Part shown: positions 11,173 through 27,956 of the stretch, piece after piece | Layout: each line of letters starts with the position of its first letter | Position numbering within the stretch: the stretch's first letter is position 1 | From: Desulfarculaceae bacterium | Lineage (GTDB): Bacteria; Desulfobacterota; Desulfarculia; Desulfarculales; Desulfarculaceae | DNA: 64,000 bases | Assembly: GCA_021737145.1 (NCBI GenBank) | Contig: JAIPEN010000009.1 | Span: forward strand, 62,001 to 126,000 | Reading direction: 5' to 3' | Position numbers and translations under genes: made by a program | The notes under the pieces: generated by a model | What the model saw: only the letters and a program-made list of their open reading frames with translations | Told to the model about the DNA's origin: nothing | Database searches by the model: none

Positions 11173-11227
11173 GCCCGCCTGCGGCCGGGGTGTGTAATTT
11201 TTAGTTTGTCTATCTCGGGGTGATGAC

Positions 11228-12337: not shown

Positions 12338-12375
12338 CGTGGCGGCGCCCAACTCCTGGCTGCGCGGCGCGCGGC

Positions 12376-12426: not shown

Positions 12427-12490
12427 TGGCCGACGGACTTGGACGCCGCTTGGACGCAGTTGTCTGTCCGGCTCCGAAGGAGGAGCAGGC

Positions 12491-13612: not shown

Positions 13613-13649
13613 GCCTGCCCCTTGGGCCCGGCATATTGAGTTAGGCAAT

Positions 13650-14537
13650 ATGGACGCGGCCCAACTAACCCAACAGATGATCAACGGCCTGACCCTGGGC
13701 AGCCTGTATGCGCTCATCGCCATCGGCTACACCATGGTCTACGGCATCCTGCGCCTGATCAACTTCGCCCACGGCGACGTGCTCATGGTGGGCTGCTACT
13801 TCGCCTGGTTCGGGGCGGTGCAGTTCGGCCTGCCCTGGTGGGTGGCGCTCATGGGCTCCATGGCCCTCACCGCCGCCCTGGGGGTGCTCATCGACCAGGG
13901 GGCCTACCGCCCCTTGAGGCAGGCGCCGCGCATCAGCGCCCTGATCACCGCCATCGGGGTGAGCTTCTTTTTGGAAAACCTGGGCCTGGTGGTCTTCGGC
14001 GGCCGCCCCAAGGCCTTTGCCCGGCCGGAGATGTTCAACCACATCTACCAGTGGGGCGAGGTGAGGGTGCTCTCCTTGTCCATCTGGGTGCCCATCCTCA
14101 CCGCCATCATCCTAGCCGGGCTGATCCTGTTCATCCACCGCACCAGGATGGGCATGGCCATGCGGGCTCTCAGCCGCGACCTGGTCACCGTGCAGCTCAT
14201 GGGCATCGACCCCAACCGCATCATCGCGGCCACCTTCGCCCTGGGCAGCGCCCTGGCCGCGGCCGGTGGGGTGCTCTGGGCCATGAAATACCCCCAGATC
14301 AATCCGCTCATGGGTGTGCTGCCCGGGCTCAAGGCGTTCGTGGCCGCGGTGCTGGGCGGCATCGGCAACGTCACCGGGGCCATGCTGGGCGGCCTGCTCC
14401 TGGGCATGGCCGAGATCATGCTGGTGGCCCTGTTGCCCGAGCTGGCCGGCTACCGCGACGCCCTGGCCTTCGTAATGCTCATCGGCATCCTCATCTTCCG
14501 GCCCACCGGCATCATGGGCGAGGAGCTGCCCGAGTGA
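13650..14537 (+). CDS. livH: Branched-chain amino acid ABC transporter permease LivH
   Basis: A 295-aa inner-membrane permease with about eight helices. Opening QQMINGLTLGSLYALIAIGY and RLINFAHGDVLMVGCY are signatures of LivH/BraD; AVLGGIGNVTGAMLGGLLLG is the EAA-like loop that contacts the ATPases. It forms the channel with LivM. The start ATG at 13650 has only a weak ribosome site, though the protein begins at the expected place for the family. Its stop abuts the left end of the dispersed element at 14539, which separates it from livM. Confidence 0.95.
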   Translation: MDAAQLTQQMINGLTLGSLYALIAIGYTMVYGILRLINFAHGDVLMVGCYFAWFGAVQFGLPWWVALMGSMALTAALGVLIDQGAYRPLRQAPRISALITAIGVSFFLENLGLVVFGGRPKAFARPEMFNHIYQWGEVRVLSLSIWVPILTAIILAGLILFIHRTRMGMAMRALSRDLVTVQLMGIDPNRIIAATFALGSALAAAGGVLWAMKYPQINPLMGVLPGLKAFVAAVLGGIGNVTGAMLGGLLLGMAEIMLVALLPELAGYRDALAFVMLIGILIFRPTGIMGEELPE

Positions 14538-14538
14538 A

Positions 14539-14805
14539 GTTAGCCCGAATATTTCATGAGGGCTGTGCGTCCGGCTGCGTCAGCCGCCGGCATACTGTGT
14601 TGCTGGCTGCGCTCGGGCCTCGACGTAGCACTTTGGCTACGCCTGCGGCCCTCGCTTACCAGACGTCTTGTCTGCCGGCGGCTGACTGTGCCGGGCCTGG
14701 GCACAACCGTAACCAAACAGTGTTGGCACGTTTTTCATAGGGGAACCAATTAATATCGAATCGCTGTTTTATGCCACGCAACCCTCATGAAAAATTCGGG
14801 CTGAC
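14539..14805 (-). repeat. Dispersed element copy B with terminal inverted repeats (about 267 bp)
   Basis: Ends are 27-base inverted repeats (14539-14565 and 14779-14805) that match at 24 of 27 positions. The left end begins GTTAGCCCGAATATTTCATG. On the minus strand the interior aligns along its full length with copy A (23923-24185): GGCATAAAAC, TATGAAAAA, CCCAGGCCCGGCACAG, AGCCGCCGGCAGACAAG, GGCGTAGCCAAAG and CTACGTCGAGGCCCGAG in the same order. The core folds into nested hairpins. No transposase is encoded. It sits between livH and livM and runs into the livM reading frame. Confidence 0.8.
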
Positions 14806-15907
14806 CGCTCTGCTCAAGCCGGGCGGCCTGCTCTCGCCCGGGGCTCTGCCCCCGGCCCACCAGACCCGGCGGCGGGACACCATGCTCACCATCGGGGCCT
14901 GCCTGCTGGCGGCCCTGGGCCTGTGGCTGCTGGAGGGCCACGCCTCGGGCTATGTGGTGCACCTGACCTGCGTGGGGGCCATCTTCGCCACCCTGGCGGT
15001 CAGCTACAACCTTATCAACGGGGTCACCGGCCAGTTCTCCCTGGAGCCCAACGCCTTCGTGGCCTGCGGGGCCTATGTAACCGCCCTGCTCACCCTCTCG
15101 CCCGCCGAGAAGGAGGCCTCCTTCATCCTGGAGCCCCTGATCTGGCCGCTGAGCGCCTTTTCCATCCCCCTGCTGCCCGCCCTGGTCATCGCCGGACTGC
15201 TCACCGCGCTCATGGCCTTCTTGATGGGCTTCCCGGTGTTCAGGGTGCGCGGCGACTACCTGGCCATAGTCACCCTGGGCTTCGGCGAGGTGATCCGGGT
15301 GGTGGCCAACAACGCCCAGAGCGTGACCAACGGCCCCCTGGGGCTCAAGGGCATTCCCCACATCACCAACCTGTGGTGGTCCTGGGGCCTGTTGGCGGTG
15401 TGCCTGTTCTTCATCGTGCGCCTGGTGCACAGCTCCTACGGCCGGGCGCTCATGGCCATCCGCGAGGACGAGACCGCGGCCGAGGCCATGGGCATCAACG
15501 CCTTTTGGCACAAGATGCTGGCCTTCACCCTGAGCGCCTTTTTCGAGGGAGTGGCCGGCGGCCTGCTGGCCCACCTCATCACCACCATCAGCCCCAGCCT
15601 GTTCACCTTCTTCCTCACCTTCAATCTGCTGATCATCATCGTGGTGGGCGGCCTGGGCTCCACCACCGGGGCGGTGCTGGGGGCCTTTTTGTTCACCTAC
15701 GGCGGGGAGTGGCTCCGGGTGGTGGAGGAGCCCATGCAGCTCATGGGCCTGGACATACCGGGCATCCCGGGCATGCGCATGGTCATCTTCAGCCTGATCC
15801 TGGTGGGGGTGATGATCTTCCTGCGCCGCGGCATCCTGGGGCGCCACGACTTCTCCTGGCGCTGGCTGCTGGCCTCCCTGGGCCTGGGACGGGGGAGCAA
15901 GGCGTGA
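14771..15907 (+). CDS. livM: Branched-chain amino acid ABC transporter permease LivM
   Basis: A 378-aa permease with about ten membrane segments, partner of LivH. Family blocks are LAVSYNLINGVTGQFSLEPNAF-like (AVSYNLINGVTGQFS), FRVRGDYLAIVTLGFGEV, IREDETAAEAMGIN and VVGGLGSTTGAVLGA. The start is unusual: ATG at 14771 lies inside the dispersed element and the first dozen residues (MPRNPHEKFGLT) are encoded by its right terminal repeat, with no clear ribosome site. ATG at 14882 (MLTIGACLLAALG) is an alternative that would still keep all membrane helices. The stop overlaps the livG start by four bases. Confidence 0.93.
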   Translation: MPRNPHEKFGLTALLKPGGLLSPGALPPAHQTRRRDTMLTIGACLLAALGLWLLEGHASGYVVHLTCVGAIFATLAVSYNLINGVTGQFSLEPNAFVACGAYVTALLTLSPAEKEASFILEPLIWPLSAFSIPLLPALVIAGLLTALMAFLMGFPVFRVRGDYLAIVTLGFGEVIRVVANNAQSVTNGPLGLKGIPHITNLWWSWGLLAVCLFFIVRLVHSSYGRALMAIREDETAAEAMGINAFWHKMLAFTLSAFFEGVAGGLLAHLITTISPSLFTFFLTFNLLIIIVVGGLGSTTGAVLGAFLFTYGGEWLRVVEEPMQLMGLDIPGIPGMRMVIFSLILVGVMIFLRRGILGRHDFSWRWLLASLGLGRGSKA

Positions 15908-16692
15908 GCCAGCCCATCCTCCAGGCGCGGGGCCTGACGGTGCGCTTCGGCGGGCTCACCGCCGTGGACCGGGTGGAGCTGGACCTGCCCGAGGGCCAGT
16001 TGGCCGGGCTTATCGGCCCCAACGGGGCGGGCAAGACCACCTGCTTCAACCTGTTCACCGGGCGCATCAAGCCCAACGAGGGCAAGCTCACCTTCGCGGG
16101 ACAGCCCATCGTGGGCCTGAGGCCCAGCCGCATCAACCAACTGGGCATGGCCCGCACCTTTCAGAACATCCGCCTGTTCGGGGAGCTCAGCGTGCTGGAC
16201 AACGTGCTGGTGGGCTTTCACGGCGGGCTCAAGAGCAACTTCCTCTCGGCCATCCTGCGCCTGCCGGGCTATGTGGCCGAGGAGCGGGGCATGCAGCGCC
16301 GGGCCGGGGAGATATTGGAGCTGACCGGCCTCACCCGCCTGCGCGACGAGCCAGCGGGCAGTTTGGCCTATGGCCAGCAGCGCCTGCTGGAGATCGCCCG
16401 GGCCCTGGCCACCGATCCCAAGCTGATCCTCCTGGACGAGCCGGCCGCGGGCATGAACCCCCAGGAGACCACCGGGCTGGCCGCCTTGGTGCGCCGCCTG
16501 CGCGACGAGCTGGGGGTCACCGTGCTGCTCATAGAGCACGACATGCGCTTTGTGATGAAGCTCTGCGAGCAGATCACCGTCTTGGACCACGGCAAGGTCA
16601 TCGCCCGGGGCGCGCCCCACCAGGTGCAGCGTGACCCGGCGGTGATCCAGGCCTATCTGGGGGCGGGCGAGGGCGAGGGGGTGGCCTCGTGA
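15904..16692 (+). CDS. livG: Branched-chain amino acid ABC transporter ATP-binding protein LivG
   Basis: A 262-aa ATPase of the importer. Walker A is GPNGAGKTT near residue 40, the Q-loop region reads ARTFQNIRLF, the signature is the LivG-type variant LAYGQQRLLEIARALA, and Walker B is LILLDEPAAGMNP, followed by the IEHDM switch histidine. Start is GTG at 15904, overlapping the livM stop (GTGA), so translation is coupled. The C-terminal extension (IQAYLGAGEGEG) is typical of LivG. It pairs with LivF on the cytoplasmic face. Confidence 0.95.
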   Translation: MSQPILQARGLTVRFGGLTAVDRVELDLPEGQLAGLIGPNGAGKTTCFNLFTGRIKPNEGKLTFAGQPIVGLRPSRINQLGMARTFQNIRLFGELSVLDNVLVGFHGGLKSNFLSAILRLPGYVAEERGMQRRAGEILELTGLTRLRDEPAGSLAYGQQRLLEIARALATDPKLILLDEPAAGMNPQETTGLAALVRRLRDELGVTVLLIEHDMRFVMKLCEQITVLDHGKVIARGAPHQVQRDPAVIQAYLGAGEGEGVAS

Positions 16693-17411
16693 GCCGGGCG
16701 GAGATGCTGACGGTGCGGGATCTGACCGTGAGCTACGGCGGCATCACCGCCCTGCGCGGGGTGGAGCTGGAGGTCAGGCGCGGCGAGATCGTGACCCTGG
16801 TGGGGGCCAACGGGGCGGGCAAGTCCACCCTGCTGGGAGCCATCAGCGGGCTGATAAAACCGGCGGCGGGCTCCATCACCTACAGGGGCCAGGAGGTGGC
16901 CGGCACCAAGGCCCACCGCCTCTCGCGGCGGGGCCTGATCCTGGTGCCCGAGGGCCGCCGCATCTTCGTAAACCTCAGCGTCAAGGAGAACCTCATCCTG
17001 GGGGGCTACTTCCGGCCCCACGACGCCGGGTTCAGCCAGGACCTGGAGCGGGTGCTGGACACCTTCCCCCGCCTGGCCGAGCGGGCGGACCAGCCGGCCG
17101 GCACCCTGAGCGGGGGCGAGCGCCAGATGCTGGCCCTGGGCCGGGGGCTCATGGGCAGCCCCAAGCTGATGATGCTCGACGAGCCCTCCCTGGGCCTGGC
17201 CCCGCTCATGGTGGCCGAGGTGTTCGGGGTGATCCGGCGCATCCACGAGCAGGGGGTCACCGTGCTGCTGGTGGAGCAGAACGCGGCCGCCGCCCTGAAG
17301 GTGGCTGACCGGGCCTACGTCTTGGAGACCGGCAAGGTGGTGCTCTCGGGCACCGGCAAGGAGCTGGCCGCCGACGGCCGGGTGCAGCGCGCCTATCTGG
17401 GCATGGACTAG
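16689..17411 (+). CDS. livF: Branched-chain amino acid ABC transporter ATP-binding protein LivF
   Basis: A 240-aa ATPase, last gene of the liv operon. Walker A GANGAGKST, signature LSGGERQMLALGRGLM, Walker B LMMLDEPSLGLAP and switch VEQNA are all intact. GTG at 16689 overlaps the livG stop (GTGA). The family C-terminus (VQRAYLGMD) is present. After it come about 265 bases without a gene, holding a large hairpin and a bidirectional terminator-like palindrome before the convergent thiolase gene. Confidence 0.95.
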   Translation: MSRAEMLTVRDLTVSYGGITALRGVELEVRRGEIVTLVGANGAGKSTLLGAISGLIKPAAGSITYRGQEVAGTKAHRLSRRGLILVPEGRRIFVNLSVKENLILGGYFRPHDAGFSQDLERVLDTFPRLAERADQPAGTLSGGERQMLALGRGLMGSPKLMMLDEPSLGLAPLMVAEVFGVIRRIHEQGVTVLLVEQNAAAALKVADRAYVLETGKVVLSGTGKELAADGRVQRAYLGMD

Positions 17412-17567
17412 GGCGAGCCTTGCCCGGGTTGGCGGGAACAATTTCAGAATAACGTAGGTTGGGTGGAGGGGCTTCTGCCCCGAATCCGATGACTCGTCTT
17501 CCCCTGTCGCGGCGGTAGCGCTCCTCGCATGCATGACAAGGGGTGTTCCATTATTTGTGCGGCCAAA

Positions 17568-17664
17568 GCAATTGCCGGGCGGGTCATCCCGTCCGGCAAT
17601 TGCTTGAGCGCAAAGTTTTTTGCGGGGGGCGCGGGGGGCGCTTTTTTACAAAAAAGCTCCCCCC
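17568..17664. terminator. Two-hairpin terminator region between convergent livF and thiolase genes
   Basis: First hairpin 17568-17603: GCAATTGCCGGGCGGG, loop TCAT, then a 15-of-16 match of its complement. Second 17633-17664: G6-CGC-T6, ACA, A6-GCT-C6, a near-perfect palindrome with internal T/A runs readable on both strands. Together they fit termination of both converging transcripts. The rest of this gap (17412-17567) shows nothing supportable. Confidence 0.55.
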
Positions 17665-17677
17665 GTTGCTTGATGAA

Positions 17678-18871
17678 TTAGGAAACCTTGACCACGATGG
17701 CCGCGGCGGTGTCGCCGGCGGCGCAGCCGGCGAACAGGCCGTAACCGCCCCCCTTGAGCACCAGCTCCTCGATCAGCTCCACGATGCAGCGGGCGCCGGT
17801 GGGGCCCTGGGGGTGGCCGAAGATCAGCGACGAGCCGTAGTTGTTGAAGATGTCGGGCGGGATGTTCATCAGCCGGCCCATGATGATGTCGTTGATGGTG
17901 AAGGGGTTGTGGGTCTTCACCGCGGCCAGGTCGCCCACGGTGATGCCCGCGTTTTTCAGGGCCATCTCGGCCGAGGGGGTCACCGCGGCGGCCATGCGCG
18001 CCTTGGCCGCCCGGGCGTGGCCGTAGGACATCACCTGGATGGTCACGCTCTTGTCCGCGCTGAGTTCCTTGGCCTTTTCCTCGGTGGTCACGATGAGCCC
18101 GGCGTTGCCGTCGGCCGGGTGGGTCTGGGCCCCGAAGGTCAGGGCGCCGTCGGGCAGGATGGGCTTGAGGCTGGCCAGGCCATCGGCGGTGGTGGGCATG
18201 ATGCCCTCGTCGGCGTCCACGGTGAGGGTCTTTTTCTTGGAGATCTTGATGTCCACCGGGATCATGTAGCCCTTTTGGAAGGCGCGGTCGTCGGCCAGGG
18301 ACATCTCGTACTGCTGGTAGCGCTTGAGGGCCAGCTCGTCGGACTCCTCCTTGGCCACCCCGCCGTTGTCCTGGCCCACCAGCTCGGCGGTGACGAACAT
18401 GGGCTTGCCGCCGTAGGGGTCGTTGTTGAAGTTGTCCATCATCCAGTTTTCGCTGATCACCTCGCCGCCCGGGCCCTTGGGGTTGGGCCAGACGCTGTGG
18501 GGGCCGTTGGAGCAGCGGTCGGTGGTGGCCACCAGGTTGCACTGGTAGGCTCCGCACTCCACGCCGGCGGCGGCGGTGTACAGGGAGGTGGCGCTGGTGG
18601 CGCAGGCCTGGCTGACGGTGGGGCCGGAGATCTTGTCGTTGCCCATCAGGGCGCAGAACCAGGGGTTGGCGTAGAACCAGGAGGGCATGCCGATGGTCAT
18701 GCCGAAGGTGCAGCCGTCCAGCTCGGCCGGGTCGATCTGCCTCAGCTCCAGGCATTTCTTGGCGGTGGAGGCGGCCAGCTTGATGGGGTGCTCGTTCTGA
18801 AAGGACATCTGCCAGCGGGAAAAGGGCGAAGACCAGTAGCCTTTGTGGGGGATATAGACGTTTTTGAACAT
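17678..18871 (-). CDS. Thiolase-family protein (acetyl-CoA acetyltransferase-like)
   Basis: A 397-aa thiolase-fold enzyme. The acyl-accepting Cys is in VSQACATSATSLYTA near residue 90; the C-terminal half has HNPFTINDI, where classic thiolases have NEAFA, then FGHPQGPTGAR (catalytic His) and FAGCAAGDTAAA with the second Cys. These altered loops place it among the less-studied thiolase-like proteins rather than biosynthetic AtoB; CoA-dependent cleavage of a branched or ring-derived 3-ketoacyl-CoA is plausible. It is last in a minus-strand unit after the HgdB-like protein, its activator and the CoA ligase. GGAG lies seven bases before ATG. Confidence 0.85.
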   Translation of the reverse strand: MFKNVYIPHKGYWSSPFSRWQMSFQNEHPIKLAASTAKKCLELRQIDPAELDGCTFGMTIGMPSWFYANPWFCALMGNDKISGPTVSQACATSATSLYTAAAGVECGAYQCNLVATTDRCSNGPHSVWPNPKGPGGEVISENWMMDNFNNDPYGGKPMFVTAELVGQDNGGVAKEESDELALKRYQQYEMSLADDRAFQKGYMIPVDIKISKKKTLTVDADEGIMPTTADGLASLKPILPDGALTFGAQTHPADGNAGLIVTTEEKAKELSADKSVTIQVMSYGHARAAKARMAAAVTPSAEMALKNAGITVGDLAAVKTHNPFTINDIIMGRLMNIPPDIFNNYGSSLIFGHPQGPTGARCIVELIEELVLKGGGYGLFAGCAAGDTAAAIVVKVS

Positions 18872-18935
18872 CGCTTGGCTCCGTTGCTAAAAAGGGTCGT
18901 TTGCGGCGCTTACCTAGGTCCCCGGCGCGCGGGGG

Positions 18936-20519
18936 TTATTTCTCTTTGTCCGACCAGTGGCCGTAGCGCTCCCGCAGCACCCGATGCAAAATCTTGCCGG
19001 TGCCGGTGCGGGGCATCTCCGCCTCGGGCACGAAGTGCACGCTCTTGGGGCGCTTGAAGCCGGCGATCTTGCCCTTGGTGAAGTTCTTGATCTCCACGGC
19101 CAGCTCCTCGCTGGGCTCGTACTCCTGGTGCAGGATGATCACCGCGGTGACGCTCTCGCCCCATTTTTCGTCGGGCACCCCGATCACGGCCACGTCCTTG
19201 ACCGCCGAGTGGCCGCCCAAGACGTCCTCCACCTCGGAGGGGTAGACGTTCTCGCCGCCGGTGATGATCATGTTTTTCTTGCGGTCCACCAGGTAGTAGT
19301 AGCCCTGGTCGTCCTTGTAGGCCATGTCCCCGGCGCTGAAGAAGTCGCCCACGAACGCCTCGGCGGTCTGCTCGGGCAGCTTCCAATATTCGGTGAACAG
19401 GGCCGGGCCCCGGCTGTAGAGCTCGCCCACCTCGCCCACGGGCACCTCGTTCTTGTCCTCGTCCAACAGCTTGATGATGTCGGTGCCCGGTATCTCGCGG
19501 CCGATGGAGCCCAGCTTGTCGAACTGCTCCGAGGGCAGGAGCAGGGTCACCAGGCCGGCCTCGGTGGAGCCGTAGGCCTCGTAGAGCTCGCTGTTTTTGA
19601 AGTAGTCCATGATGGCCAGCTTCAGATCGCGGCGGGCGGGCGCGCTGGAGATCAGCAGCTTCTTCACGCAGTCCACGTTGTAGCTGGCTTTCACCTCCTC
19701 GGGCAGGGCCAGCATCATGATGTAGTGGGTGGGCACCAGGGAGGTGAAGGTCACCTTGAAATCGGCCAGGGTCTTGATCATGTGCTCGGCGTCGAAGCTC
19801 ACCGAGTTGTAGACCAGGGCGGTGGCCCCCAGGCAGGTGAACACAAAGCTGTAGTACACGCTGTTGATGTGGCACATGGGCATGACCAGCAGGCCGCGGT
19901 CTTCGGTGTCGTAGCCCATGGCCGCTATGTTGGTCCAGTACTTGCCGGAGAAGGACTCGTGGGTGCGCACCACGCCCTTGGGGCGGCCGGTGGTGCCGGA
20001 GGTGTACATGATGATCCACACGTCCTCGTCGATCACCTTGGTGGCGGGCTCCTCGGGGCTGGCCTCGGCCATGATCTGTTCCAGGCCCACGAACCCCTCC
20101 GGGGTGTCGCCCTCGCCGAAGGAGATGTAGTTGCCCGCCGGGATGCTCTCGAAGTCGGGCTTGGCCTCGGCCACGTCGGCGGCGAAAGGCTTCTCCACGA
20201 TGATGGCGCCGACCTCGGCGTTGTTGAGGATGTAGGTGTATTCCACCGGGGTCAGGCGGAACATGATGGGCACCGCGATGAAGCCGCCCTTGGCGCAGGC
20301 GCCGTAGAGCTCCAGCCACTCCAGGCAGTTGTAGGCGATCATGGCCACCCGGTCGCCCTTTTTCAGGCCCATGTCGGCCAGGGCGTTGGCCAGGCGGTTG
20401 CAGCGCTCGTTCCATTCTTTGAAGGTCAGCGAACGGAAAAGGTCGGCCGCCCCCTCCTTGTCCGGAAACTTGACGGCGTTGATCCTAAGGATGTCGGCCA
20501 CGGTCAGCCAGCGGTTCAT
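18936..20519 (-). CDS. AMP-forming acyl-CoA synthetase (ANL superfamily)
   Basis: A 527-aa ligase that activates a carboxylic acid to its CoA ester through an acyl-adenylate. Core motifs: MYTSGTTGRPKGVV (P-loop), EAYGSTEAG (A5), DRKKNMIITGGENVYP (hinge) and PRTGTGKILHRVLR (catalytic Lys). The length suits medium-chain, aromatic or fatty acids. The substrate is not deducible. Start is ATG at 20519; GTG at 20525 is equally possible. Its neighbours (HgdB-type enzyme and thiolase on the same strand, Liv importer next door) suggest it feeds an imported acid into this CoA pathway. Confidence 0.92.
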   Translation of the reverse strand: MNRWLTVADILRINAVKFPDKEGAADLFRSLTFKEWNERCNRLANALADMGLKKGDRVAMIAYNCLEWLELYGACAKGGFIAVPIMFRLTPVEYTYILNNAEVGAIIVEKPFAADVAEAKPDFESIPAGNYISFGEGDTPEGFVGLEQIMAEASPEEPATKVIDEDVWIIMYTSGTTGRPKGVVRTHESFSGKYWTNIAAMGYDTEDRGLLVMPMCHINSVYYSFVFTCLGATALVYNSVSFDAEHMIKTLADFKVTFTSLVPTHYIMMLALPEEVKASYNVDCVKKLLISSAPARRDLKLAIMDYFKNSELYEAYGSTEAGLVTLLLPSEQFDKLGSIGREIPGTDIIKLLDEDKNEVPVGEVGELYSRGPALFTEYWKLPEQTAEAFVGDFFSAGDMAYKDDQGYYYLVDRKKNMIITGGENVYPSEVEDVLGGHSAVKDVAVIGVPDEKWGESVTAVIILHQEYEPSEELAVEIKNFTKGKIAGFKRPKSVHFVPEAEMPRTGTGKILHRVLRERYGHWSDKEK

Positions 20520-20588
20520 GCTCACCTCTCTCCCTCGTGGTTGTTCATGGCTCGTCCGGGCCCCTCTCGCCCGGGGTCGGCCAGCTCC

Positions 20589-21362
20589 TTATCCCTCCCC
20601 GTCCCGGCCGGCCAGGATTGCCGCGCCCCAGGCCCCCATCAGTTGGGGATGGGGCGGCAGAAGCACCTCGCCGTCCAGTTCCGCGCCCAGCATCTGAGCC
20701 AGGTAGGGGTTGTGCGCCGCCACTCCGCCGGTCATGACCACCGCGCCGTTCAGGGTGTCCATCTCCATCACCCTTTTGACCACCGAGCGGAACAGCCCCT
20801 TTACCAGGGCCTCCACCTGGACTCCCTCCCGGATCTTGGCCAGGACCTCGGTGGCGGTGAACACGGTGCAATAGGCCCCCAGGGTGGCTTCGCTGGTGGC
20901 CTTGGCGGCCAGGTCGTTGAAGCTCTCCAGGGGCAAATCCAGGCGCAGGGCCATCTCCTCAAGGAAGGCCCCGGTGCCGGCGGCGCACTTGCGATTCATC
21001 TTGAACGAGGTCCTCAGACCCCGCTGGTTGATCTTGATGACCTTGTTGTCCTGTCCCCCGATGTCCACCACGGTGATGGCCCGGGGGAAGTGGTGATAGG
21101 CTCCGGCCGCGTGGCAGGCGATCTCGGTGCGGGTGGCGGCGGCCATGGCCGCGTTGGAGCGGCCGTAACCGCAGGCAAAGACCTTGCCCAGGTCCCCGGC
21201 CTTCAGCCCCGCCTGGGTCAGGGCCTCGCCCAGCCCGGCGGCGGCGCTGGCCGCGAAATCCACCCCCGAGCGCCGGATGGAAAAGCCCAGCAACCGGCCC
21301 TTTTCGTCCACCAGCACCGCCTTGGTGGCGCTGGCCCCTATGTCCAGTCCGCCAAAGACCAT
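20589..21362 (-). CDS. BadF/BadG/BcrA/BcrD-type ATPase activator
   Basis: A 257-aa ASKHA-fold ATPase that passes low-potential electrons from ferredoxin to its partner dehydratase or reductase while hydrolysing ATP. Phosphate loop GGLDIGASATKAV at the N-terminus, DIGGQDNKVI near residue 100, and the cysteines in NRKCAAGTGAF (C126) and LGAYCTVF (C165) that would hold the [4Fe-4S] cluster bridging the homodimer; these positions match those of the HgdC activator. ATG at 21362 shares its A with the stop of the HgdB-like gene, so the two are translationally coupled and almost certainly functional partners. Confidence 0.93.
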   Translation of the reverse strand: MVFGGLDIGASATKAVLVDEKGRLLGFSIRRSGVDFAASAAAGLGEALTQAGLKAGDLGKVFACGYGRSNAAMAAATRTEIACHAAGAYHHFPRAITVVDIGGQDNKVIKINQRGLRTSFKMNRKCAAGTGAFLEEMALRLDLPLESFNDLAAKATSEATLGAYCTVFTATEVLAKIREGVQVEALVKGLFRSVVKRVMEMDTLNGAVVMTGGVAAHNPYLAQMLGAELDGEVLLPPHPQLMGAWGAAILAGRDGEG

Positions 21363-22600
21363 CAGGCGGCCGCCGCCTCCGCGATCTGCTCCATGAACGC
21401 CTCGAGGTTGGTCTTGGCCTGTTCGTCGGAGAAGCAGCGCAGGTCGTTGAGGTCGCCGTTGATCACCAGGGTGGGCACGCCGTGCACCTCGGCGAAGCGC
21501 TGGGGCATGGCGTAGCGGTTGTTGGAGTTGTTGGGGCAGGTCTTGGCATCGTGGAACACGATGCCCTGGCAGCCGTAAAGCTCCACATGGTCCTGGATGT
21601 AGCGCTCCTTGAAGGCCTCGTCGCGCACGATGAACAGCTCCAGATAGGCCCGGGCCATGGAGCGGAAGGGGTCGTCCGCGTCGAAGGCGTCGAAGATCCA
21701 GGAGTTGCAATAGGTGCTGGCCACGATGGCGGTGTCCAGCTCCATCATCAGGTCGCCCAGCATGCGCAGGCGGCCCCACACCGGCATGCCGTCCCAGTAG
21801 AGCCGGAAGCGCTCGCCGGGCACCGCGGCCATCCCGGCCGCGTCGCGCTCTTGCAGCTCGGCCAGCAGGGTCTCGTAATAGGCCACCGCCTCGGGCTTGC
21901 CGCGCAGGACCACCGCCGGGGCCATGTGGATGGTGTGGTCGAAAAAACTCAGCTGGGCCGGGGTCTTGTCCCCGTATTCCAGCACCTTGCGCCACATGAC
22001 CGTGCACTGCTTGGACAGGTCCACCGTCTCGCGCAGGCGGTCGATGTCAAACTTGTTGCCCGATATCTCTTCCAGGGCGGGCACCAAGCCCTCTATCTGG
22101 GCGGCGATGTCCTCCACCATGGACTCGTGCACATCGCCCACCCCGCGCTGGGTGCGCACCCCGATCACCGGCGCGCCGTAGTGGCGTCCGTACCACTCGA
22201 ACCAGTCCTGCACGTCGCGGCACTGGTTGGTGTTGAACACCAGCACGTCGGGCTTGGGCACGCTCTCAATGCCGTAGGCCTTGGTCAGGGGGGTCACGCC
22301 CTTCAAGAAGGCGCCCACGTCGGCGGTGAGATAGGAGCAGATGTCCGGGCTGTAGCCCACCGCGTTGGCCACGGGAATGGTGTCGGTGGCCATGCGGGTG
22401 GCTCCCAGCAGGGCGCCGTGATTCTCGGGGTAGTACACGTCGAAGCCCATGGCGTGCAGCAGCTCGGCCGGACCCACGCTGGTGCACCAGGCCACCTTGG
22501 GGCTGCCCTCGCGGGCGGCCCGGTCCAGGCCCAGGAAGTGGTCGGCCATGAGCTTTTTCATCATTTTGGTGGCCGCGATGGGCGGAGGCCCTTGGGTCAT
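21362..22600 (-). CDS. 2-hydroxyacyl-CoA dehydratase / benzoyl-CoA reductase family protein (single HgdB-like subunit)
   Basis: A 412-aa protein of the HgdB/BcrB/BcrC/YjiM superfamily. The family opening KVAWCTSVGPAELLHAMG (C39) is clear; further cysteines at about 88, 127, 199, 298, 344, 355 and 389 are candidates for Fe-S ligation. Known members bind a [4Fe-4S] or a double-cubane [8Fe-9S] cluster and do radical dehydration or difficult reductions. Normally two unlike subunits are needed, but only one gene is present with its ATPase, the arrangement of YjiM/YjiL and double-cubane proteins. GGAGG six bases before ATG. The CoA ligase and thiolase in the same unit argue for a CoA-ester substrate, but this is inference. 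Confidence 0.9.
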   Translation of the reverse strand: MTQGPPPIAATKMMKKLMADHFLGLDRAAREGSPKVAWCTSVGPAELLHAMGFDVYYPENHGALLGATRMATDTIPVANAVGYSPDICSYLTADVGAFLKGVTPLTKAYGIESVPKPDVLVFNTNQCRDVQDWFEWYGRHYGAPVIGVRTQRGVGDVHESMVEDIAAQIEGLVPALEEISGNKFDIDRLRETVDLSKQCTVMWRKVLEYGDKTPAQLSFFDHTIHMAPAVVLRGKPEAVAYYETLLAELQERDAAGMAAVPGERFRLYWDGMPVWGRLRMLGDLMMELDTAIVASTYCNSWIFDAFDADDPFRSMARAYLELFIVRDEAFKERYIQDHVELYGCQGIVFHDAKTCPNNSNNRYAMPQRFAEVHGVPTLVINGDLNDLRCFSDEQAKTNLEAFMEQIAEAAAA

Positions 22601-22691
22601 TAATATCCTCCGGGGACTAGGCTGCCCGGGGCCCCTCTGCGTTACAAAATGGTCGCCAGGGGCCGAAAATAGTGGACAAAATGATTACATG

Positions 22692-22710
22692 TTAGCTACA
22701 ATCTAGCTAA
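22692..22710. promoter_or_regulatory. Perfect dyad, candidate operator
   Basis: TTAGCTA, CAATC, TAGCTAA: seven-base perfect inverted arms with a five-base spacer, in an AT-rich patch of an otherwise GC-rich 255-base divergent intergenic region. The size and symmetry fit a TetR/FadR-type dimer site controlling one or both of the divergent units. No regulator gene is adjacent. Confidence 0.5.
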
Positions 22711-22855
22711 TTCGCATCATAGGCAGGCCAAATAAGCTTGTCAAGCGATAATATGGGGCGCTAAATCCGGAGCTTAGGGCTCGCGGCCCGCGTGGGGCCG
22801 GGGGTGGGGAGAGGGCCGGTGCGCCCCTGAATTCAACCATATTCCAGAGGCTACT

Positions 22856-23926
22856 TTGAACCCAGCCGAGATTGACACGCCGGTGTTGATAATAGGAGGC
22901 GGGGTGGCCGGGCTCAGCGCGGCGGTGGAGCTGTCCCGCCGGGGGCTGGCCAGCACCGTTGTGGAGCGCGAGGCGGCTCCCGGAGGCCGGGCGGGCGAGT
23001 TCTGCTGCAAGGCGGTCGCCGCCTGCGCCCGTTGCGGGGCCTGCCGCTTGGGCGACCTGCTGGCCGAGGCCGCCGCCCGCCCCGAGATCACCCTGCACAC
23101 CGCCGCCCTGGTGACCAGCGCCGAACAAAAAGACGGCCTCTGGACCGTGGAGCTGTCCCCTCAGCCGGCGGGCGATGACGCCCCCGGCCCGGGCGCGCCG
23201 CTGGGCGAGCGGTGTTCCCTAACCACCGGGGCGGTGATTCTGGCGGTGGGCGGCCAAGTGTTCGACCCGGCCGGCAAGAGCCGCTTTGCCCACGGCCGGG
23301 TGGAAGGGGTGCACAGCGCCCTGGAGCTGGAGGCCATGCTGGCCATGGGGGCCATCGGGCCCGGGGCCATGGCCCCGGCCAAGGTGGCCTTTATCCAGTG
23401 CGTGGGCAGCCGCGACGCCGCCGGAGGACGCCCCTGGTGCTCCCGGGTGTGCTGCGGCTATGCCCTGCGCATGGCCCGGGTGATCCGCCACCGCCTGCCC
23501 GAGACCGAGGTGACCTTTTTCCACATGGACGTGCAGGACTACGGCCGGGCCTGGGAAGAGGAGCTTCCCAGCCTCAAAGAGGACATACGCTTTGTGCGGG
23601 CCATGCCCGGCGAGGTGACCGCCGGGGAGCAAGGCCCCCGGGTGGTCTTTGCCGGGCCCGAGGGCGCGCCCGTCAGCGAGGGCTTTGACCTGGTGATCCT
23701 CTCGGTGGGCATCGGACCGCCCAACGGGGCCGGCTCCCTGCACGAGCTGTTCGGCGCGGCCCCGGACCAGGACGGCTTTTTGGCCGAGGAGGGCCCGGAC
23801 GGCCTGTTCGTGGCCGGCGCGGCGGCCGGCCCCCGCTCTTTGAACGAGTCCATCACCCACGCCGGGCTGGCCGCTTCCCGCGCCGCCGCCCGGGTGGGGG
23901 CCCTGTTGGAGGCGGCCCGTGGCTAG
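22856..23926 (+). CDS. QmoA/HdrA-like FAD flavoprotein
   Basis: A 356-aa flavoprotein related to HdrA and the QmoA subunit of the Qmo complex. FAD-binding GGGVAG at residues 14-19, a cysteine-rich stretch FCCKAVAACARCGAC (C50-C63), and the HdrA hallmark QCVGSRD (181-187) with CSRVCC (195-200). It ends with an ESITHAG flavin-contact motif. No ferredoxin motifs are present; those are on the next gene, as in QmoA/QmoB. Start is TTG at 22856, with AGAGG five bases upstream. The stop codon lies in the left terminal repeat of the dispersed element that separates it from the QmoB-like gene. Confidence 0.87.
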   Translation: MNPAEIDTPVLIIGGGVAGLSAAVELSRRGLASTVVEREAAPGGRAGEFCCKAVAACARCGACRLGDLLAEAAARPEITLHTAALVTSAEQKDGLWTVELSPQPAGDDAPGPGAPLGERCSLTTGAVILAVGGQVFDPAGKSRFAHGRVEGVHSALELEAMLAMGAIGPGAMAPAKVAFIQCVGSRDAAGGRPWCSRVCCGYALRMARVIRHRLPETEVTFFHMDVQDYGRAWEEELPSLKEDIRFVRAMPGEVTAGEQGPRVVFAGPEGAPVSEGFDLVILSVGIGPPNGAGSLHELFGAAPDQDGFLAEEGPDGLFVAGAAAGPRSLNESITHAGLAASRAAARVGALLEAARG

Positions 23927-24185
23927 CCGGCATGCTTCACGAGGGCCGGGCGGCATAAAACTATGTAGGAGTATTTCTAGGACTCTTATGAAAAAGGTGG
24001 CGACATTATCAGATTATGGTTTGCACCCAGGCCCGGCACAGCCAGCCGCCGGCAGACAAGGCGTCTGGCAAGCGAGGGCCGCTGGCGTAGCCAAAGCTAC
24101 GTCGAGGCCCGAGTGTAGCCAGCAACACAGGGTGTCGGCGGCTGGCGCAGCCGGACGCACGGCCTTCGTGAAGCATGCCGGCTAG
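23923..24185 (+). repeat. Dispersed element copy A with terminal inverted repeats (263 bp)
   Basis: Ends are 25-base inverted repeats (23923-23947 and 24161-24185) with one mismatch; both outer ends read CTAG. The interior aligns full-length with copy B on the opposite strand. Inner arms CAGCCGCCG/CGGCGGCTG enclose a GTAGC-CAAA-GCTAC hairpin. The left repeat contains the stop codon of the QmoA-like gene and the right repeat contains the ATG of the QmoB-like gene. No coding capacity is seen. The look is that of a non-autonomous MITE or a large REP-like palindromic element. Confidence 0.8.
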
Positions 24186-26034
24186 GGTCAGCCTGATCTG
24201 GCAAGAGGCCCCGGGCCTGAGCGGCCTGGACCCCGCCCAGGTGGCCCTGGCCGCCGGGGTGGAGCTGGACGACGGCGGGCTGGTCGAGGCGGCGGTGGTG
24301 ACCGTTGCCCAGGAGCGGGCCCCGCGTGGCTTGCAAGAGCGCCTGGCCGGGCTGCCGGTGTCCTGGCTGGACCTGGCGGCTGAAATTGGGGGCGGCGGCG
24401 ACGCCCACCGCCTGGCCCGCGCGGCCACCGCCGTGGCCCGCGCGGCCGGACGGGCGGCCAAGGGAACCCTGCCTCCGGTCTACGCCCCCCAGCCGGCCCA
24501 GAGCGTGTTGGTGGCCGGGGCGGGCCTCGGCGCATTGGCCGCAGCCTGGGAAGCGGCGGCCCTGGGCCACCCGGTCACCCTGGCCACGCCCTTTGGCGAT
24601 GCGGCCACGCCGGGGGCTGACGACGATCCCCAGGCGGTGGGCCTCATGGCCGCCCAGCTCCCGGCCCAGGTGGAGCTGGCCACCGAGTGCGAGCTGATCG
24701 GCCTGGCCGGCTCGGCCGGGGGCTTCAGCGCCCGGCTCATGGGTCCCCAGGGCGAAAGCTCCCAGGGCTTCGGCGCGGTTTTCCTGGCCCCGCCCGGCGA
24801 GCTGGCCCCTGGCTGCGAGATCCATGGCCTGAACCCCGAGCTATGCGTTTTGGCCTCCAAGCTGGACCCCGAGGACTGGCAAGGGCCCGAAGACGCCTGG
24901 CTGCACGCGGCGGTCTTGGCGGGCAGCGCGCAGGCGGCGCCGTCCTACAGCTTCGCGGCCGCCCTGGAGGCGGCCCTGGCCCTGGCCAAGCGGCCCCGGG
25001 TGCAGGTGAGCCTGTTCTACACCGAGGCCCGGGTGGCCGTGCCCGGCGCGGAGCGCCTGTTCCGCGACTGCCGCGCCGCCGGGGTGCTGCCAATGCGGGT
25101 GGAGCCCGGCGGCCTGGAGGTGCGGGGTGGCCACACCCTGGCCTGGTTCGACCCGCTCCTGGGCGAGGAGATAACCCTGGAGCCGGCCGTGGCCGTCATG
25201 GCCGAGCAATCCGGTGCCCCGCGGCCCGCCTGGCTGGACAACGAGCTGACCGTAAAGCCCTGGGACCTGCTGGTGCCCGAGAACCCCCGCCTGGCCGGGG
25301 GCAAGACCAGCCGCTCCGGGCTCTATATTCTGGGCTCTCTCCGGGGAACCGCGCCCGGCGCGCCCCGCCGGGCCGAGGCGGCCGCCGCCACGGCGGACAT
25401 GCACGCGCGCCTCACCGGCAGGGTGGTGCCCATGCCCGCGGTGCGCGACCAGCTCTGCGCCCGCTGTCTAAGCTGCGTGCGGGCCTGCCCCCACGGGGTG
25501 CCCCAGTTCGTGGGCTTCGGCATCGCCTGCTCGCCGGCCGGTTGCGTGGCCTGCGGCATCTGCGCGGCCGAGTGCCCGGCCGAGGCCATCGCCCCGCCGG
25601 GCTGGGGCCAGCCCGAGATGCTGGCCGCCCTGGAAGCGGCCCTGGCCGTGGCCCCGGAGCCCAAGATGGTGCTGTTCGCCTGCGGCCAGTCGGGCATGCC
25701 CGCCGCGTCGGCCCTGTCGGCCTCGGGGCACCAGTGGCCCGCCGGTCTGGTGATCTTCCCCCTGGTCTGCGCCGGGCGCACCAGCCAGGTGCTGGTCACC
25801 CGCGCCCTGGAGTTGGGGGCCAAGGGAGTGCTCACCGCGGGCTGCCATCCGGGCAACTGCCGCTCCATCAGCGGCAACCTGGTGGCCGCGGCCAAGCTGG
25901 AGATGGTCCAGGGCATGCTGGCCGAGCTGGGCCTGGACCCCGAGGCGGTGAGCTTCCTGCCCCTGGCCAGCAACCAGACCCGCGAGCTGGCCCAAGCGGT
26001 GGAGGCCCTGGCGGTCAAGGCGGAGGAGGCGTGA
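24175..26034 (+). CDS. QmoB-like HdrA/ferredoxin/MvhD fusion protein
   Basis: A 619-aa Fe-S flavoprotein. A degenerate Rossmann motif (VAGAGLGAL, ~113-121) opens an HdrA-like middle; two [4Fe-4S] ferredoxin motifs follow (CARCLSCVRAC from C428, CVACGICAAEC from C457), then an MvhD-like tail with FACGQSG (C503) and GCHPGNC (C557, C562). This domain order is that of QmoB. MvhD-type domains pass electrons to HdrA flavin. ATG at 24175 lies inside the repeat and lacks a good ribosome site; GTG at 24241 is a possible alternative. It overlaps hdrC by one base. The partner complex probably comprises QmoA-like, HdrC and HdrB. Confidence 0.87.
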   Translation: MPARVSLIWQEAPGLSGLDPAQVALAAGVELDDGGLVEAAVVTVAQERAPRGLQERLAGLPVSWLDLAAEIGGGGDAHRLARAATAVARAAGRAAKGTLPPVYAPQPAQSVLVAGAGLGALAAAWEAAALGHPVTLATPFGDAATPGADDDPQAVGLMAAQLPAQVELATECELIGLAGSAGGFSARLMGPQGESSQGFGAVFLAPPGELAPGCEIHGLNPELCVLASKLDPEDWQGPEDAWLHAAVLAGSAQAAPSYSFAAALEAALALAKRPRVQVSLFYTEARVAVPGAERLFRDCRAAGVLPMRVEPGGLEVRGGHTLAWFDPLLGEEITLEPAVAVMAEQSGAPRPAWLDNELTVKPWDLLVPENPRLAGGKTSRSGLYILGSLRGTAPGAPRRAEAAAATADMHARLTGRVVPMPAVRDQLCARCLSCVRACPHGVPQFVGFGIACSPAGCVACGICAAECPAEAIAPPGWGQPEMLAALEAALAVAPEPKMVLFACGQSGMPAASALSASGHQWPAGLVIFPLVCAGRTSQVLVTRALELGAKGVLTAGCHPGNCRSISGNLVAAAKLEMVQGMLAELGLDPEAVSFLPLASNQTRELAQAVEALAVKAEEA

Positions 26035-26531
26035 TGCGGCTCAATGACTGCGATCCCGGCTTCAAGCACCAGGTGGCCGCCGAGCCCGGGGGAGAGGGCA
26101 TCCGGGTATGCTTTGGCTGCGCAGCCTGCAGCGCCCGCTGCCCGGTGGGGGCCAACCGCCCGGAGTACGACCCTCGGCGCATCATCCGGGCCGCCCTGCT
26201 GGGCCGGCGCGAGGAGGTGCTGGCCTCGCCCCTGATCTGGCTCTGCTCCTCCTGCTACACCTGCGGCGAGGTCTGCCCCCAGGGGGTGCGCTTCACCGAC
26301 GTGCTCACCGCCATCAAGAACATCGCCGCCCGGGCGGGACACGCCCCGCCCTCGGCCCGGATCACCGCCGAGCTTTTGGCCAAGCAGGGCCGTTTGCTGG
26401 AGGTCACCGAGTTCGAAAACGACAAGCGGGCCGAGCTGGGCCTGCCCCCGGTGGAGCAGCGGCCCCATGACTTCCAGAGCATCCTGGGCCTAGAGCCCCC
26501 GCCCGAGGGCGGGGAAGGGGAGGGCGCGTGA
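26034..26531 (+). CDS. hdrC: HdrC-like iron-sulfur protein
   Basis: A 165-aa soluble ferredoxin-like subunit with two [4Fe-4S] motifs, CFGCAACSARC (C26, C29, C32, C36) and CSSCYTCGEVC (C71, C74, C77, C81), as in HdrC of heterodisulfide reductases. It relays electrons between the HdrA/QmoB-type flavoprotein and HdrB. Unlike QmoC or HdrE fusions there is no membrane cytochrome domain. ATG at 26034 shares a base with the upstream stop, and its own stop shares a base with the hdrB start: tight coupling of three genes. Length is within the usual 150-190 aa. Confidence 0.92.
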   Translation: MRLNDCDPGFKHQVAAEPGGEGIRVCFGCAACSARCPVGANRPEYDPRRIIRAALLGRREEVLASPLIWLCSSCYTCGEVCPQGVRFTDVLTAIKNIAARAGHAPPSARITAELLAKQGRLLEVTEFENDKRAELGLPPVEQRPHDFQSILGLEPPPEGGEGEGA

Positions 26532-27406
26532 TGAAGGCTCTCCTGTTTTTGGGCTGCACCGTGCCGGTGCGCAACCTCAACTACGAGCTCAGCGCCCGCA
26601 AGGTGTGCCAAGCCCTGGGGGTGGAGCTGGTGGACGACCCGGCCCTGGCCTGCTGCGGCTATCCCCTCAAGGGCTCGGACCAGGGCCACGCCCTGGTCAT
26701 CGCCGCCCGGGCCCTGGCCCAGGCCAAGGCCCACGATCTGCCCCTGGTGGCCCTGTGCTCGGCCTGCGCCGGCACCCTGGCCGAGGCCGAGCATCACCTG
26801 GCCCACGACCCGGCCGCGGCCGAGGCGGTCAACCGGGAGCTGGAGCCCCTGGGCCTCAAGTACGAGCCCGGCGCGCGGGTGAACCACCTGATGCGCTTTT
26901 TGCTCAGCGAGGTGGGCCTGGAGGCCATTCAGGCCAAGATGAGCAAGAGCCTGGAGGGCTTTTCCTTCGCGCCCCACTACGGCTGCCACTATCTGAAGCC
27001 GGCCGAGGTGATCGGCGGGCTGGACGACCCTGAAAACCCCCAGAGCATGGGCCAGCTCATCGCGGCCACCGGGGCCAGGGCGGTCAGCCACCCCCGGCTC
27101 AAGGACTGCTGCGGGGGCGGAGTGCTGGGCGCGGACGAAGAGCTGGCCGGGTCGTTGGCCGGGGCCAAGCTGGCCGAGCTCAACGAACTGGGGGTCACGG
27201 CCATGGTGCTGGTCTGCCCCTTTTGCAACGTGATGTACGAGGGCCAGCAAAAGGCCATCGCCAAGCGCCTGGACACCAAGTTCAAGGTGCCGGTGGTCTA
27301 TCTGACCCAAATCCTGGGCCTGGGCCTGGGCCTGAGCCCGGACGAAGTGGGCCTAAAGCTCAACCGGGTCAAGCCCAAGGAGCTGATCAAGGCCTTCAAG
27401 GAATAG
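26531..27406 (+). CDS. hdrB: HdrB-like subunit with two CCG domains
   Basis: A 291-aa catalytic-type HdrB. Both cysteine-rich CCG domains are complete: C9, C41-C42, C76xxC79 and C152, C193-C194, C229xxC232. In HdrB these hold two non-cubane [4Fe-4S] clusters that split a disulfide. Here the acceptor is unknown; the lipoyl-carrier gene just downstream makes a lipoamide disulfide one candidate. Start is ATG at 26531 (TGATG overlap with hdrC). QmoAB with HdrCB in place of QmoC is the arrangement known from Gram-positive sulfate reducers, though there it is beside aprBA. Confidence 0.92.
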   Translation: MKALLFLGCTVPVRNLNYELSARKVCQALGVELVDDPALACCGYPLKGSDQGHALVIAARALAQAKAHDLPLVALCSACAGTLAEAEHHLAHDPAAAEAVNRELEPLGLKYEPGARVNHLMRFLLSEVGLEAIQAKMSKSLEGFSFAPHYGCHYLKPAEVIGGLDDPENPQSMGQLIAATGARAVSHPRLKDCCGGGVLGADEELAGSLAGAKLAELNELGVTAMVLVCPFCNVMYEGQQKAIAKRLDTKFKVPVVYLTQILGLGLGLSPDEVGLKLNRVKPKELIKAFKE

Positions 27407-27527
27407 CAATTTGGCGCTGCTTGGCTGCTATGCTATAGCTAGCGGAACAAGCAGGGGGCGCGGCCCGCGCCCGGTCCAAAACAGACATGAACCAACCCCA
27501 GCGGGGAGCTTGAGGAGGAGTCGGCCC

Positions 27528-27956
27528 ATGGAGGTTTCAGGCTACAATTTTCCCGATGAGCTGTACTACGACACCAACCACTTCTGGGCCCGGGTGGAGG
27601 GCGATGTGGTGGTGATGGGCACCACCGACCTGACCCAGCGCCTGGCTGGCGAGATCACCTTCGTGGACGTGCCCGAAGAGGACGACGAGGTGACCCAGGG
27701 CAAGCCCTTCGGCTCCATCGAGAGCGGCAAATGGGTGGGCCGGGTCTATGCCGTGGTCTCCGGCGAGGTTGCCGAGGGCAACGAGGAGCTGGAGGACGAG
27801 CCGGAGCTGATCAACTCCGACTGCTACGGCGAGGGTTGGATTTGCAAGATAACGCCCGGCGACCTGGAGGGAGACCTGTCCAAGTTGATGCAAGGCGAGG
27901 CCTACGCCAAGTGGGTGGAGGCCGAGATCGCCAAGCTGGACCAGGACCAGGGCTAG
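27528..27956 (+). CDS. GcvH-like lipoyl-carrier protein
   Basis: A 142-aa protein of the glycine-cleavage H family. The lipoylation site is GSIESGKWVGRVYAVVSGEV, with Lys68 in the expected ESxK context. The N-terminal part DTNHFWARVEGDVVVMGTT is standard for GcvH. No glycine cleavage P, T or L genes are in the window. It lies 121 bases after hdrB; a GC-rich hairpin (GGGCGCG-GCC-CGCGCCC) sits in the gap. GcvH-like proteins (LbpA) are known partners of Hdr-like sulfur-oxidising complexes, so a carrier role for this Hdr set is plausible but unproven. GGAGGAG seven bases before ATG is strong. Confidence 0.88.
   Translation: MEVSGYNFPDELYYDTNHFWARVEGDVVVMGTTDLTQRLAGEITFVDVPEEDDEVTQGKPFGSIESGKWVGRVYAVVSGEVAEGNEELEDEPELINSDCYGEGWICKITPGDLEGDLSKLMQGEAYAKWVEAEIAKLDQDQG

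Follow-up and report, generated by a model that had tools for sequence, protein, structure and literature searches.

How could a 2-hydroxyacyl-CoA dehydratase do its work with one catalytic subunit? In the textbooks, such enzymes are radical enzymes of two subunits, known from amino-acid fermenters, and the question is raised by a locus in a stretch of 64,000 nucleotides (hereafter the window) from a Desulfarculaceae bacterium (assembly GCA_021737145.1, contig JAIPEN010000009.1, positions 62,001 to 126,000). Four genes on the minus strand, at 17678-22600, form this locus. The first, HGDB (21362-22600), encodes a one-subunit, HadB-side member of the benzoyl-CoA reductase/2-hydroxyacyl-CoA dehydratase family of 412 aa (PF06050, 221.8 bits, cut-off 28.4). 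Then follow ACT (20589-21362), an HgdC/HadI-type ATPase activator of 257 aa (TIGR00241, 190.3 bits, cut-off 125.4), LIG (18936-20525, start at 20525 or 20519), an AMP-forming acyl-CoA ligase (PF00501 and PF13193), and THI (17678-18871), a thiolase (PF00108 and PF02803). We propose that HGDB and ACT together are an (R)-2-hydroxyacyl-CoA dehydratase of the HadB type with a single catalytic subunit. The second one (HadC/HgdA) would have been lost, and the enzyme, probably a homodimer, would feed benzoyl-CoA, with aryllactyl-CoA as its probable substrate. We give this reading a probability of about 0.5.

The gene order is that of the original prediction, which was made from the letters of the window: coordinates and domain scans agree on an HgdB-family gene whose stop overlaps the activator start (TGA and ATG share one base, TGATG), followed on the same strand by ligase and thiolase after gaps of 63 and 64 bases. 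Also, the eight cysteines of HGDB (39, 88, 127, 199, 298, 344, 355, 389) and Cys126 (in KCAAGTG) and Cys165 (in CTVF) of ACT were seen where announced. THI carries all three catalytic motifs (SQAC, GHPQG, AGCAAG) and was rightly called atypical, because it scores 170.8 bits against the general thiolase model, under the curated cut-off of 240.55. NCBIfam and PDB matches did not reveal the substrates of LIG and THI. The grouping is not due to chance, since all four genes were together in 14 of 17 relatives' loci (from 16 genomes); of the other three, one is cut by a contig end, one has HGDB and ACT only, and one has HGDB alone.

Family position and subunit number

The nearest solved protein to HGDB was HadB (164.9 bits), and to ACT it was HadI (155.9 bits). 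Tree rows were chosen by hand, 113 of 141 sequences being used after removal of one partial sequence, extra HGDB rows and eight near duplicates. The HGDB sequences formed one clade (Shimodaira-Hasegawa-like approximate likelihood ratio test, SH-aLRT, 99) inside a 36-row clade (99) of HadB and other catalytic subunits of two-subunit enzymes, and the double-cubane cluster protein (DCCP), BzdN and HadC stood on the opposite side. A more careful tree, built on 36 of the 113 rows, gave the same placement and showed the two-subunit C5B clade as the sister of HGDB (94/93). On this tree, which does not include YjiM itself, a clade uniting HGDB with DCCP was rejected (approximately unbiased test, p-AU 0.00014), and one uniting HGDB with BzdO was rejected weakly (p 0.023). 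Judged by the tree, the predicted ancestor of HGDB is the catalytic subunit (HadB) of the dehydratases with two subunits. It scored under the cut-offs of the BcrB and BzdO equivalog models (135.1 vs 486.55 and 74.7 vs 448.6 bits).

HGDB and ACT resemble the HadBC/HadI system (PDB 3o3m, 4eht) by family, by the three cluster cysteines and the equivalent of E55, by the W-x-T-S-V-x-P and YPEN motifs, and by the separate HgdC-type activator. The differences are a HadC subunit, which has no counterpart with HGDB, the residues S35, P291 and C267 of HadB in the places of C39, C298 and V274, and the neighbours, which include CoA ligases more often than a CoA-transferase; that of the HadBC system is HadA. 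Closest in the tree are the C5-type two-subunit dehydratases, one of which is encoded on contig C5 of the same genome. Its B subunit is 36% identical to HGDB and belongs to the sister clade; however, it lacks C39 and C298, and its A subunit is kept next door (10069-11160 of locus L011). The surroundings of that enzyme (L011, C5:3000-22900) comprise, at 6347-11850, the HadBC-like two-subunit dehydratase with an activator, and by eye also aldo/keto-reductase-like, AhpD-like and glyoxalase-like genes.

Both subunits of known dehydratases belong to PF06050, HadC matching it through its kin, and a partner of HGDB should therefore show in a PF06050 search. No second subunit of this family (HGD-D) was found in the HGDB operon. 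Moreover, at the thresholds used, no other HGD-D match was found in three of 16 HGDB genomes (G063, a closed chromosome, CP070727; G069; G070) nor in the HGDB genomes G165, G179 and G261, out of 35 genomes searched. Because of these six genomes, which bear out the claim of one subunit with its own activator, HGDB is predicted to require no partner, unless the partner belongs to another family.

Another explanation would be a two-subunit enzyme with an unlinked partner, for instance a DCCP-like or C11-type (about 330 aa) HGD-D protein. Many HGDB genomes do carry other HGD-D genes, and that of the window has eight in all: two DCCP-like genes over the double-cubane cut-off (C10 and C6), the C5 pair, a C22 pair with two ATPases, the C11 singleton, and HGDB. 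But besides the six genomes without any such gene, the closed genome of Desulfonema magnum has only HGDB and one DCCP-like protein. In Dethiosulfatarculus G008 (97% complete), HGDB is accompanied by two proteins that score like the DCCP and C11 types, and genes with scores like both types also occur in G009, which is without an HGDB ortholog. An unlinked partner thus appears improbable. The original prediction had set against itself a grouping with two-subunit enzymes joined to an unlinked partner gene, or a loss of cluster ligands; the grouping is there, on the HadB side, the partner gene is not, and C88, C127 and C355 are all kept.

Two of the other HGD-D loci of this genome have features of their own. 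The C11 protein (332 aa; 8321-10427 of L013) adjoins an ApbC/Mrp-like iron-sulfur carrier, and matches of similar score occur in most of 18 relatives, with or without HGDB. L012 (C22:99500-119400) holds, at 7174-11138, a second set resembling class I benzoyl-CoA reductase (BCR), which includes two ATPases and two HGD-D proteins that form separate branches; TRAP-transporter-like genes, a FadB-like protein and a thiolase, all three recognized by eye, adjoin it.

Cluster cysteines of HGDB

C88, C127 and C355, together with E59, align with C84, C117, C346 and E55 of HadB. The same three align with Cys95, Cys128 and Cys380, the cluster ligands reported for BzdO in PMC11971306. They are putative ligands of a predicted [4Fe-4S] cluster. 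C39, C88, C127, C355, S41 and E59 were invariant in 34 of 34 hand-picked HGDB members, and C298 was present in 33 of them. The patterns used to scan the genome collection for relatives (YCNSWIF and AWCTSVGP) include C298 and C39, so that the conservation of these two among scanned loci is partly built in. Among members found without the patterns, L040 and L220 have both cysteines, and L224 has a glycine at 298. This last sequence (contig C30 of G067, Geobacter argillaceus) is the third HGDB-family copy of its genome.

The original prediction saw in the eight cysteines room for a double-cubane cluster, and thereby a kinship with DCCP and YjiM. A one-subunit, double-cubane reductase of small molecules, of the DCCP/YjiM kind, would share with HGDB the combination of one catalytic subunit and one activator, as found in DCCP (PDB 6eno, 7yyl). 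Against the published double-cubane ligands of BzdN (Cys36/73/100/263/293/327), C298 falls on Cys263, and also on C309 of DCCP, and C39 lies one residue from Cys36, on which T40 falls, and from C76 of DCCP. In all, four of the six ligand positions are aligned and one is a residue off, but no HGDB residue aligns with Cys293, so that the sixth ligand is missing. The double-cubane model NF040772 gave HGDB 53.8 bits, under its cut-off of 350, and DCCP lies on the other side of the tree, where the test cited above rejects a common clade. We regard such a reductase as most improbable, and this part of the prediction was not borne out.

Within the alignment, C39 and C298 occurred jointly only in HGDB-family rows; outside that family a cysteine was found at position 39 in one row (MbdO) and at 298 in 24 rows. 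By this alignment, the HGDB site differs both from that of HadB and from a complete double cubane. C39 and C298 might form an additional electron relay and so stand in for the electron-relay role of the missing subunit.

Neighbouring genes, substrate and the benzoyl-CoA pathway

One pattern scan of the genome collection gave at least 517 stretches with HGDB relatives. The 80 best-scoring, which are no random sample, were read as named loci (L062-L141; 59-81% identity). Neighbours were counted within 9 kb of HGDB, many contigs ending sooner, and genes were called by a home-made script which misreads some GC-rich loci (L145, L146, L234 and L238 were excluded). An activator was present in 70 of the 80 loci and a thiolase in 24. 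The CoA-ester setting of the original prediction was borne out by CoA-activating enzymes in 58 loci, among them an NDP-forming acyl-CoA ligase in 40 and an AMP-forming ligase in 24. L131 has a family III CoA-transferase. GlcDF, a fused protein with a 2-hydroxyacid-dehydrogenase-like part binding flavin adenine dinucleotide (FAD) and a CCG iron-sulfur part, is encoded in the window at 28133-30721 (+). It was found in 18 loci, a PanE/ApbA-type reductase in 18, and either of them in 36. In 11 of the 80 loci, and also in G021 and G053, which are of other families, GlcDF immediately precedes HGDB on its strand. In L088 the gene directly upstream is Ldh_2, of a third, unrelated family of 2-hydroxyacid dehydrogenases. 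As a control, 33 other genes of the window, not picked for universality, were sought in the 72 loci left after omission of eight syntenic with the window. Thirty were near HGDB in none, two in one and two loci, and the last, an AMP ligase, in 15 of 72, which we take as homology to LIG. The hydroxyacid dehydrogenases around HGDB and ACT are of unrelated families and the CoA-activating enzymes of more than one kind, which indicates a 2-hydroxyacyl-CoA substrate.

For the HadB type, ATP-driven one-electron activation, a ketyl radical, elimination of hydroxide and recycling of the electron are established. By analogy, the [4Fe-4S] ATPase ACT would spend ATP to inject one electron. The HGDB cluster held by C88, C127 and C355 would then generate a ketyl radical from the 2-hydroxyacyl-CoA, and HGDB would expel the hydroxyl group and release an enoyl-CoA, the electron being recycled. 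LIG would form the CoA ester, GlcDF (elsewhere the PanE-type or Ldh_2-type dehydrogenase) would interconvert 2-oxo- and 2-hydroxyacid, and THI would complete a single turn of beta-oxidation. Aryllactates are the most probable substrates; phenyllactate derived from phenylalanine, for instance, could be turned by way of cinnamoyl-CoA into benzoyl-CoA for the ring pathway.

Aryllactyl-CoA is favoured because of the tie to the benzoyl-CoA pathway set out below and because of PaaK, IorAB and PanE-type neighbours in some loci. In G211 (L236), HGDB-ACT, a PanE-type reductase, IorAB, a Dch-like hydratase and Oah lie on one contig within less than 20 kb; G269 (L237) has the same genes plus PaaK, again within less than 20 kb, its HGDB being cut by the contig end. 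IorA was also within 9 kb of HGDB in four of the 80 loci. The phenyllactyl-CoA dehydratase FldABC/FldI of Clostridium sporogenes, mentioned in PMC13416013, shares the proposed reaction and the logic of the module (hydroxyacid dehydrogenase, CoA activation, dehydratase, activator) and differs by two catalytic subunits, a CoA-transferase and a reductive Stickland pathway. That paper (2026) concerns the benzene-degrading sulfate reducer BzS1, for which a phenyllactyl-CoA dehydratase is required but left unassigned; among the candidates listed is one singular gene 30% identical to FldB (PMC13416013).

The main alternative substrate is 2-hydroxyglutaryl-CoA. Its interconversion with glutaconyl-CoA could link benzoyl-CoA breakdown, or glutamate, to 2-oxoglutarate, with GlcDF as a D-2-hydroxyglutarate dehydrogenase. 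Benzoyl-CoA breakdown yields glutaryl- and glutaconyl-CoA. GlcDF partly matches the YdiJ 2-hydroxyglutarate dehydrogenase model (220 bits, cut-off 1350) and gave 400 bits with the glcD model (cut-off 568). A thiolase and an NDP-forming ligase would suit an energy-conserving end, and glutaconyl-CoA is common to the benzoyl-CoA pathway as presented in PMC13416013. PaaK and IorAB beside HGDB in some loci nevertheless indicate aryl acids, and we consider this interconversion unlikely.

The tie to the benzoyl-CoA pathway was seen locally and across genomes. Next to HGDB, nine of the 80 loci (L087, L091, L095, L101, L103, L106, L127, L133, L140) carried Dch, Had or Oah over NCBIfam cut-offs; these are genes of benzoyl-CoA ring cleavage, Oah being the ring hydrolase. 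The DCH2-type hydratases of L080, L082, L088 and L125 were considered as ring genes and set aside, as they gave no match at E 1e-70. Of 16 chosen HGDB genomes, 13 had Oah over the cut-off and three had a partial match; broken Oah readings were met in G060, where part of the gene reads as X, and in G071, where the match is interrupted. Among 60 relatives, Oah was found in 18 of 21 genomes with HGDB and in 1 of 39 without; for the 30 relatives at least 90% complete the counts were 14 of 14 and 1 of 16. The same held for 247 genomes of the phylum at least 90% complete, which overlap with the 60 relatives (34 of 41 vs 31 of 206; Fisher p 3.7e-17, kinship ignored).

These data raise the possibility that HGDB and ACT are a minimal one-subunit reductase of benzoyl-CoA, or of another aryl- or dienoyl-CoA, performing ATP-driven ring reduction at a single [4Fe-4S] cluster. 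Besides the nine loci and the co-occurrence of Oah, this would suit G261 (100% complete), G165 and G179, where HGDB is the sole HGD-D match despite Oah and AFOR was not searched. It would also suit G070, with HGDB as sole HGD-D match despite Oah and five unclassified AFOR matches, and G069, which shows neither class of BCR (HGDB as sole HGD-D match, one weak AFOR match, Oah partial, completeness not known). The class I benzoyl-CoA reductases BzdNOPQ and MbdONPQ (PDB 8s02, 9g87) belong to the same superfamily, with the three BzdO ligands aligned and a cysteine in MbdO at the place of C39; they differ in that a further catalytic subunit is a protein of its own and that there are two ATPase subunits, as described in PMC11971306. 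At the active site, His131 of BzdO is absent from HGDB (V130), and MbdO has F in its place; Trp46 falls on W38 or G43 of HGDB, depending on the alignment. The weak rejection of a clade with BzdO speaks against a reductase.

The window's genome encodes a BamB-type benzoyl-CoA reductase (982 bits to 4z3w), so this role need not fall to HGDB in that organism. In Zixibacteria G062, true BzdN and BzdO (496 and 705 bits) lie some 12 kb away from HGDB, and AFOR_N matches that begin like BamB, and are candidates for it, were found in G008, G010, G063 and G066. According to PMC1924859, Geobacter metallireducens breaks down benzoate in the absence of any such catalytic subunit. HGDB as the missing benzoyl-CoA reductase, a candidate raised by Dch, Had and Oah as neighbours, was thus lowered by BamB and BzdNO in HGDB genomes, and a reductase function seems to us decidedly unlikely. 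Since these enzymes occur in HGDB genomes, since Oah without HGDB is common (31 genomes) and since G. metallireducens lacks such subunits, HGDB looks peripheral to the benzoyl-CoA pathway, feeding into it, not central. Of the reductive or dehydrative route of its own foreseen in the original prediction, the dehydrative part is favoured, but the route seems, with exceptions, to be ancillary to the benzoyl-CoA pathway rather than free-standing.

Several observations weigh against a one-subunit aryllactyl-CoA dehydratase. We know of no dehydratase of HadBC/HgdAB type without two unlike subunits, and HGDB reaches 204.3 bits with the HadB equivalog NF052455, under the cut-off of 750. GlcDF-type enzymes usually oxidize hydroxyacids, which is the wrong direction for the use of phenylpyruvate, and the 36 loci with GlcDF or a PanE-type gene are not all of the 80, many contigs being short. 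IorA was tried as a genome-wide marker of the substrate and dropped as uninformative: it does not discriminate (14 of 16 genomes with HGDB, 6 of 10 without), two closed Zixibacteria with HGDB have none, and the link to phenylalanine therefore rests on local gene order. Also, Oah was below the threshold used in 7 of 41 HGDB genomes, which counts against a strict tie. In four of these Oah-less genomes (G249, G286, G117, G297) no ligase was seen near HGDB-ACT, and in G147, G234 and G148 HGDB has its usual neighbours.

A wider scenario is that a HadC-like partner was lost, that C39 and C298 were gained at or near double-cubane places and that the relay was thereby rebuilt in the same chain. The homodimers would dehydrate aryllactyl-CoA and open a route from phenylalanine and hydroxyacids into benzoyl-CoA in more than ten phyla by record names. 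Perhaps they would also provide the dehydratase that has been postulated for the breakdown of benzene by way of phenylpyruvate without oxygen. We hold this scenario to be doubtful and rate it slightly lower because C298 is not invariant (L224).

HGDB relatives were found in records named Desulfarculaceae, Dethiosulfatarculus, Desulfocarbo, Desulfonema magnum, Geobacter argillaceus, Aminicenantes, Zixibacteria, Planctomycetota, Acidobacteria, Elusimicrobia, Spirochaetia and Dehalococcoidia, and in archaeal metagenome-assembled genomes; phylum names are those of record titles, and some records titled 'Deltaproteobacteria' belong to Myxococcota. A search of the open-licence PMC literature, with subscription papers outside its reach, yielded no account of a dehydratase like HGDB with one subunit, and the peripheral route suggested by the benzoyl-CoA tie had no assignment there. 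The family is thus conserved, widespread and apparently unstudied. The enzyme is predicted to be oxygen-sensitive and to remove water, and it may feed aromatic compounds into the central aromatic pathway. If this is true, a conserved one-subunit form derived from the catalytic subunit would simplify the machine and show the purpose of the second subunit; the names of the records that hold it include sulfate reducers, Geobacter, Zixibacteria, Aminicenantes, Planctomycetota and archaeal metagenome-assembled genomes.

The remainder of the locus and other observations

The original prediction ended its stretch at HGDB. Its four genes stand, but the conserved block of the window's family continues beyond a divergent promoter region (22601-22855; consensus match only) as far as 30721. 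On the plus strand, domain scans identified the N-terminal part of an HdrA-like protein (22856-23926, start at 22856 or 22904), which is kept beside HGDB in the window's family. Domain scans and relatives' loci identified its C-terminal part with a VhuD-like end (24175-26034), an HdrC-like (26034-26531) and an HdrB-like protein (26531-27406). A GcvH-like lipoyl protein (27528-27956; ESGKW at 65) was recognized by motif, domain match and relatives' loci, and GlcDF closes the block. This unit (22856-30721) resembles the sHdr/LbpA sets, but joined to a 2-hydroxyacid dehydrogenase; GlcDF may be coupled to the Hdr proteins, and HdrABC and the GcvH-like protein may carry its electrons. Between the two gene sets, a near-consensus match TTGACA-17-TATGAT (22744-22716, minus strand) points to HGDB, and a consensus match TGGACA-18-TACAAT (22673-22702, plus strand) points to hdrA; the interval 17300-22950 thus had two promoter-like matches, with 0.7 expected in shuffles.

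On the other side of the locus, branched-chain-type transporter genes (10006-17411) were considered as a part of the system. They stand beside HGDB in G006 and partly in G003 and G004, and livK/livH-like genes occur near HGDB in a few distant loci; the transporter was not counted. Three LivK-type binding-protein genes follow one another at 10006-13612, and then livH, livM, livG and livF, as seen by eye and by synteny. G003 has the full cluster (L048) and also a second HGDB copy (L061:9681-10799; about 61%) without activator or ligase nearby. Farther on in the window, at 45031-46311, three small paralogues lie in tandem; they share a WxGTWT motif, and their starts look like those of exported proteins. 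Just past the window, on contig C23 of the same genome, L014:1893-6098 encodes a CoA-enzyme activase of 1401 aa with two ATPase stretches and DUF2229.

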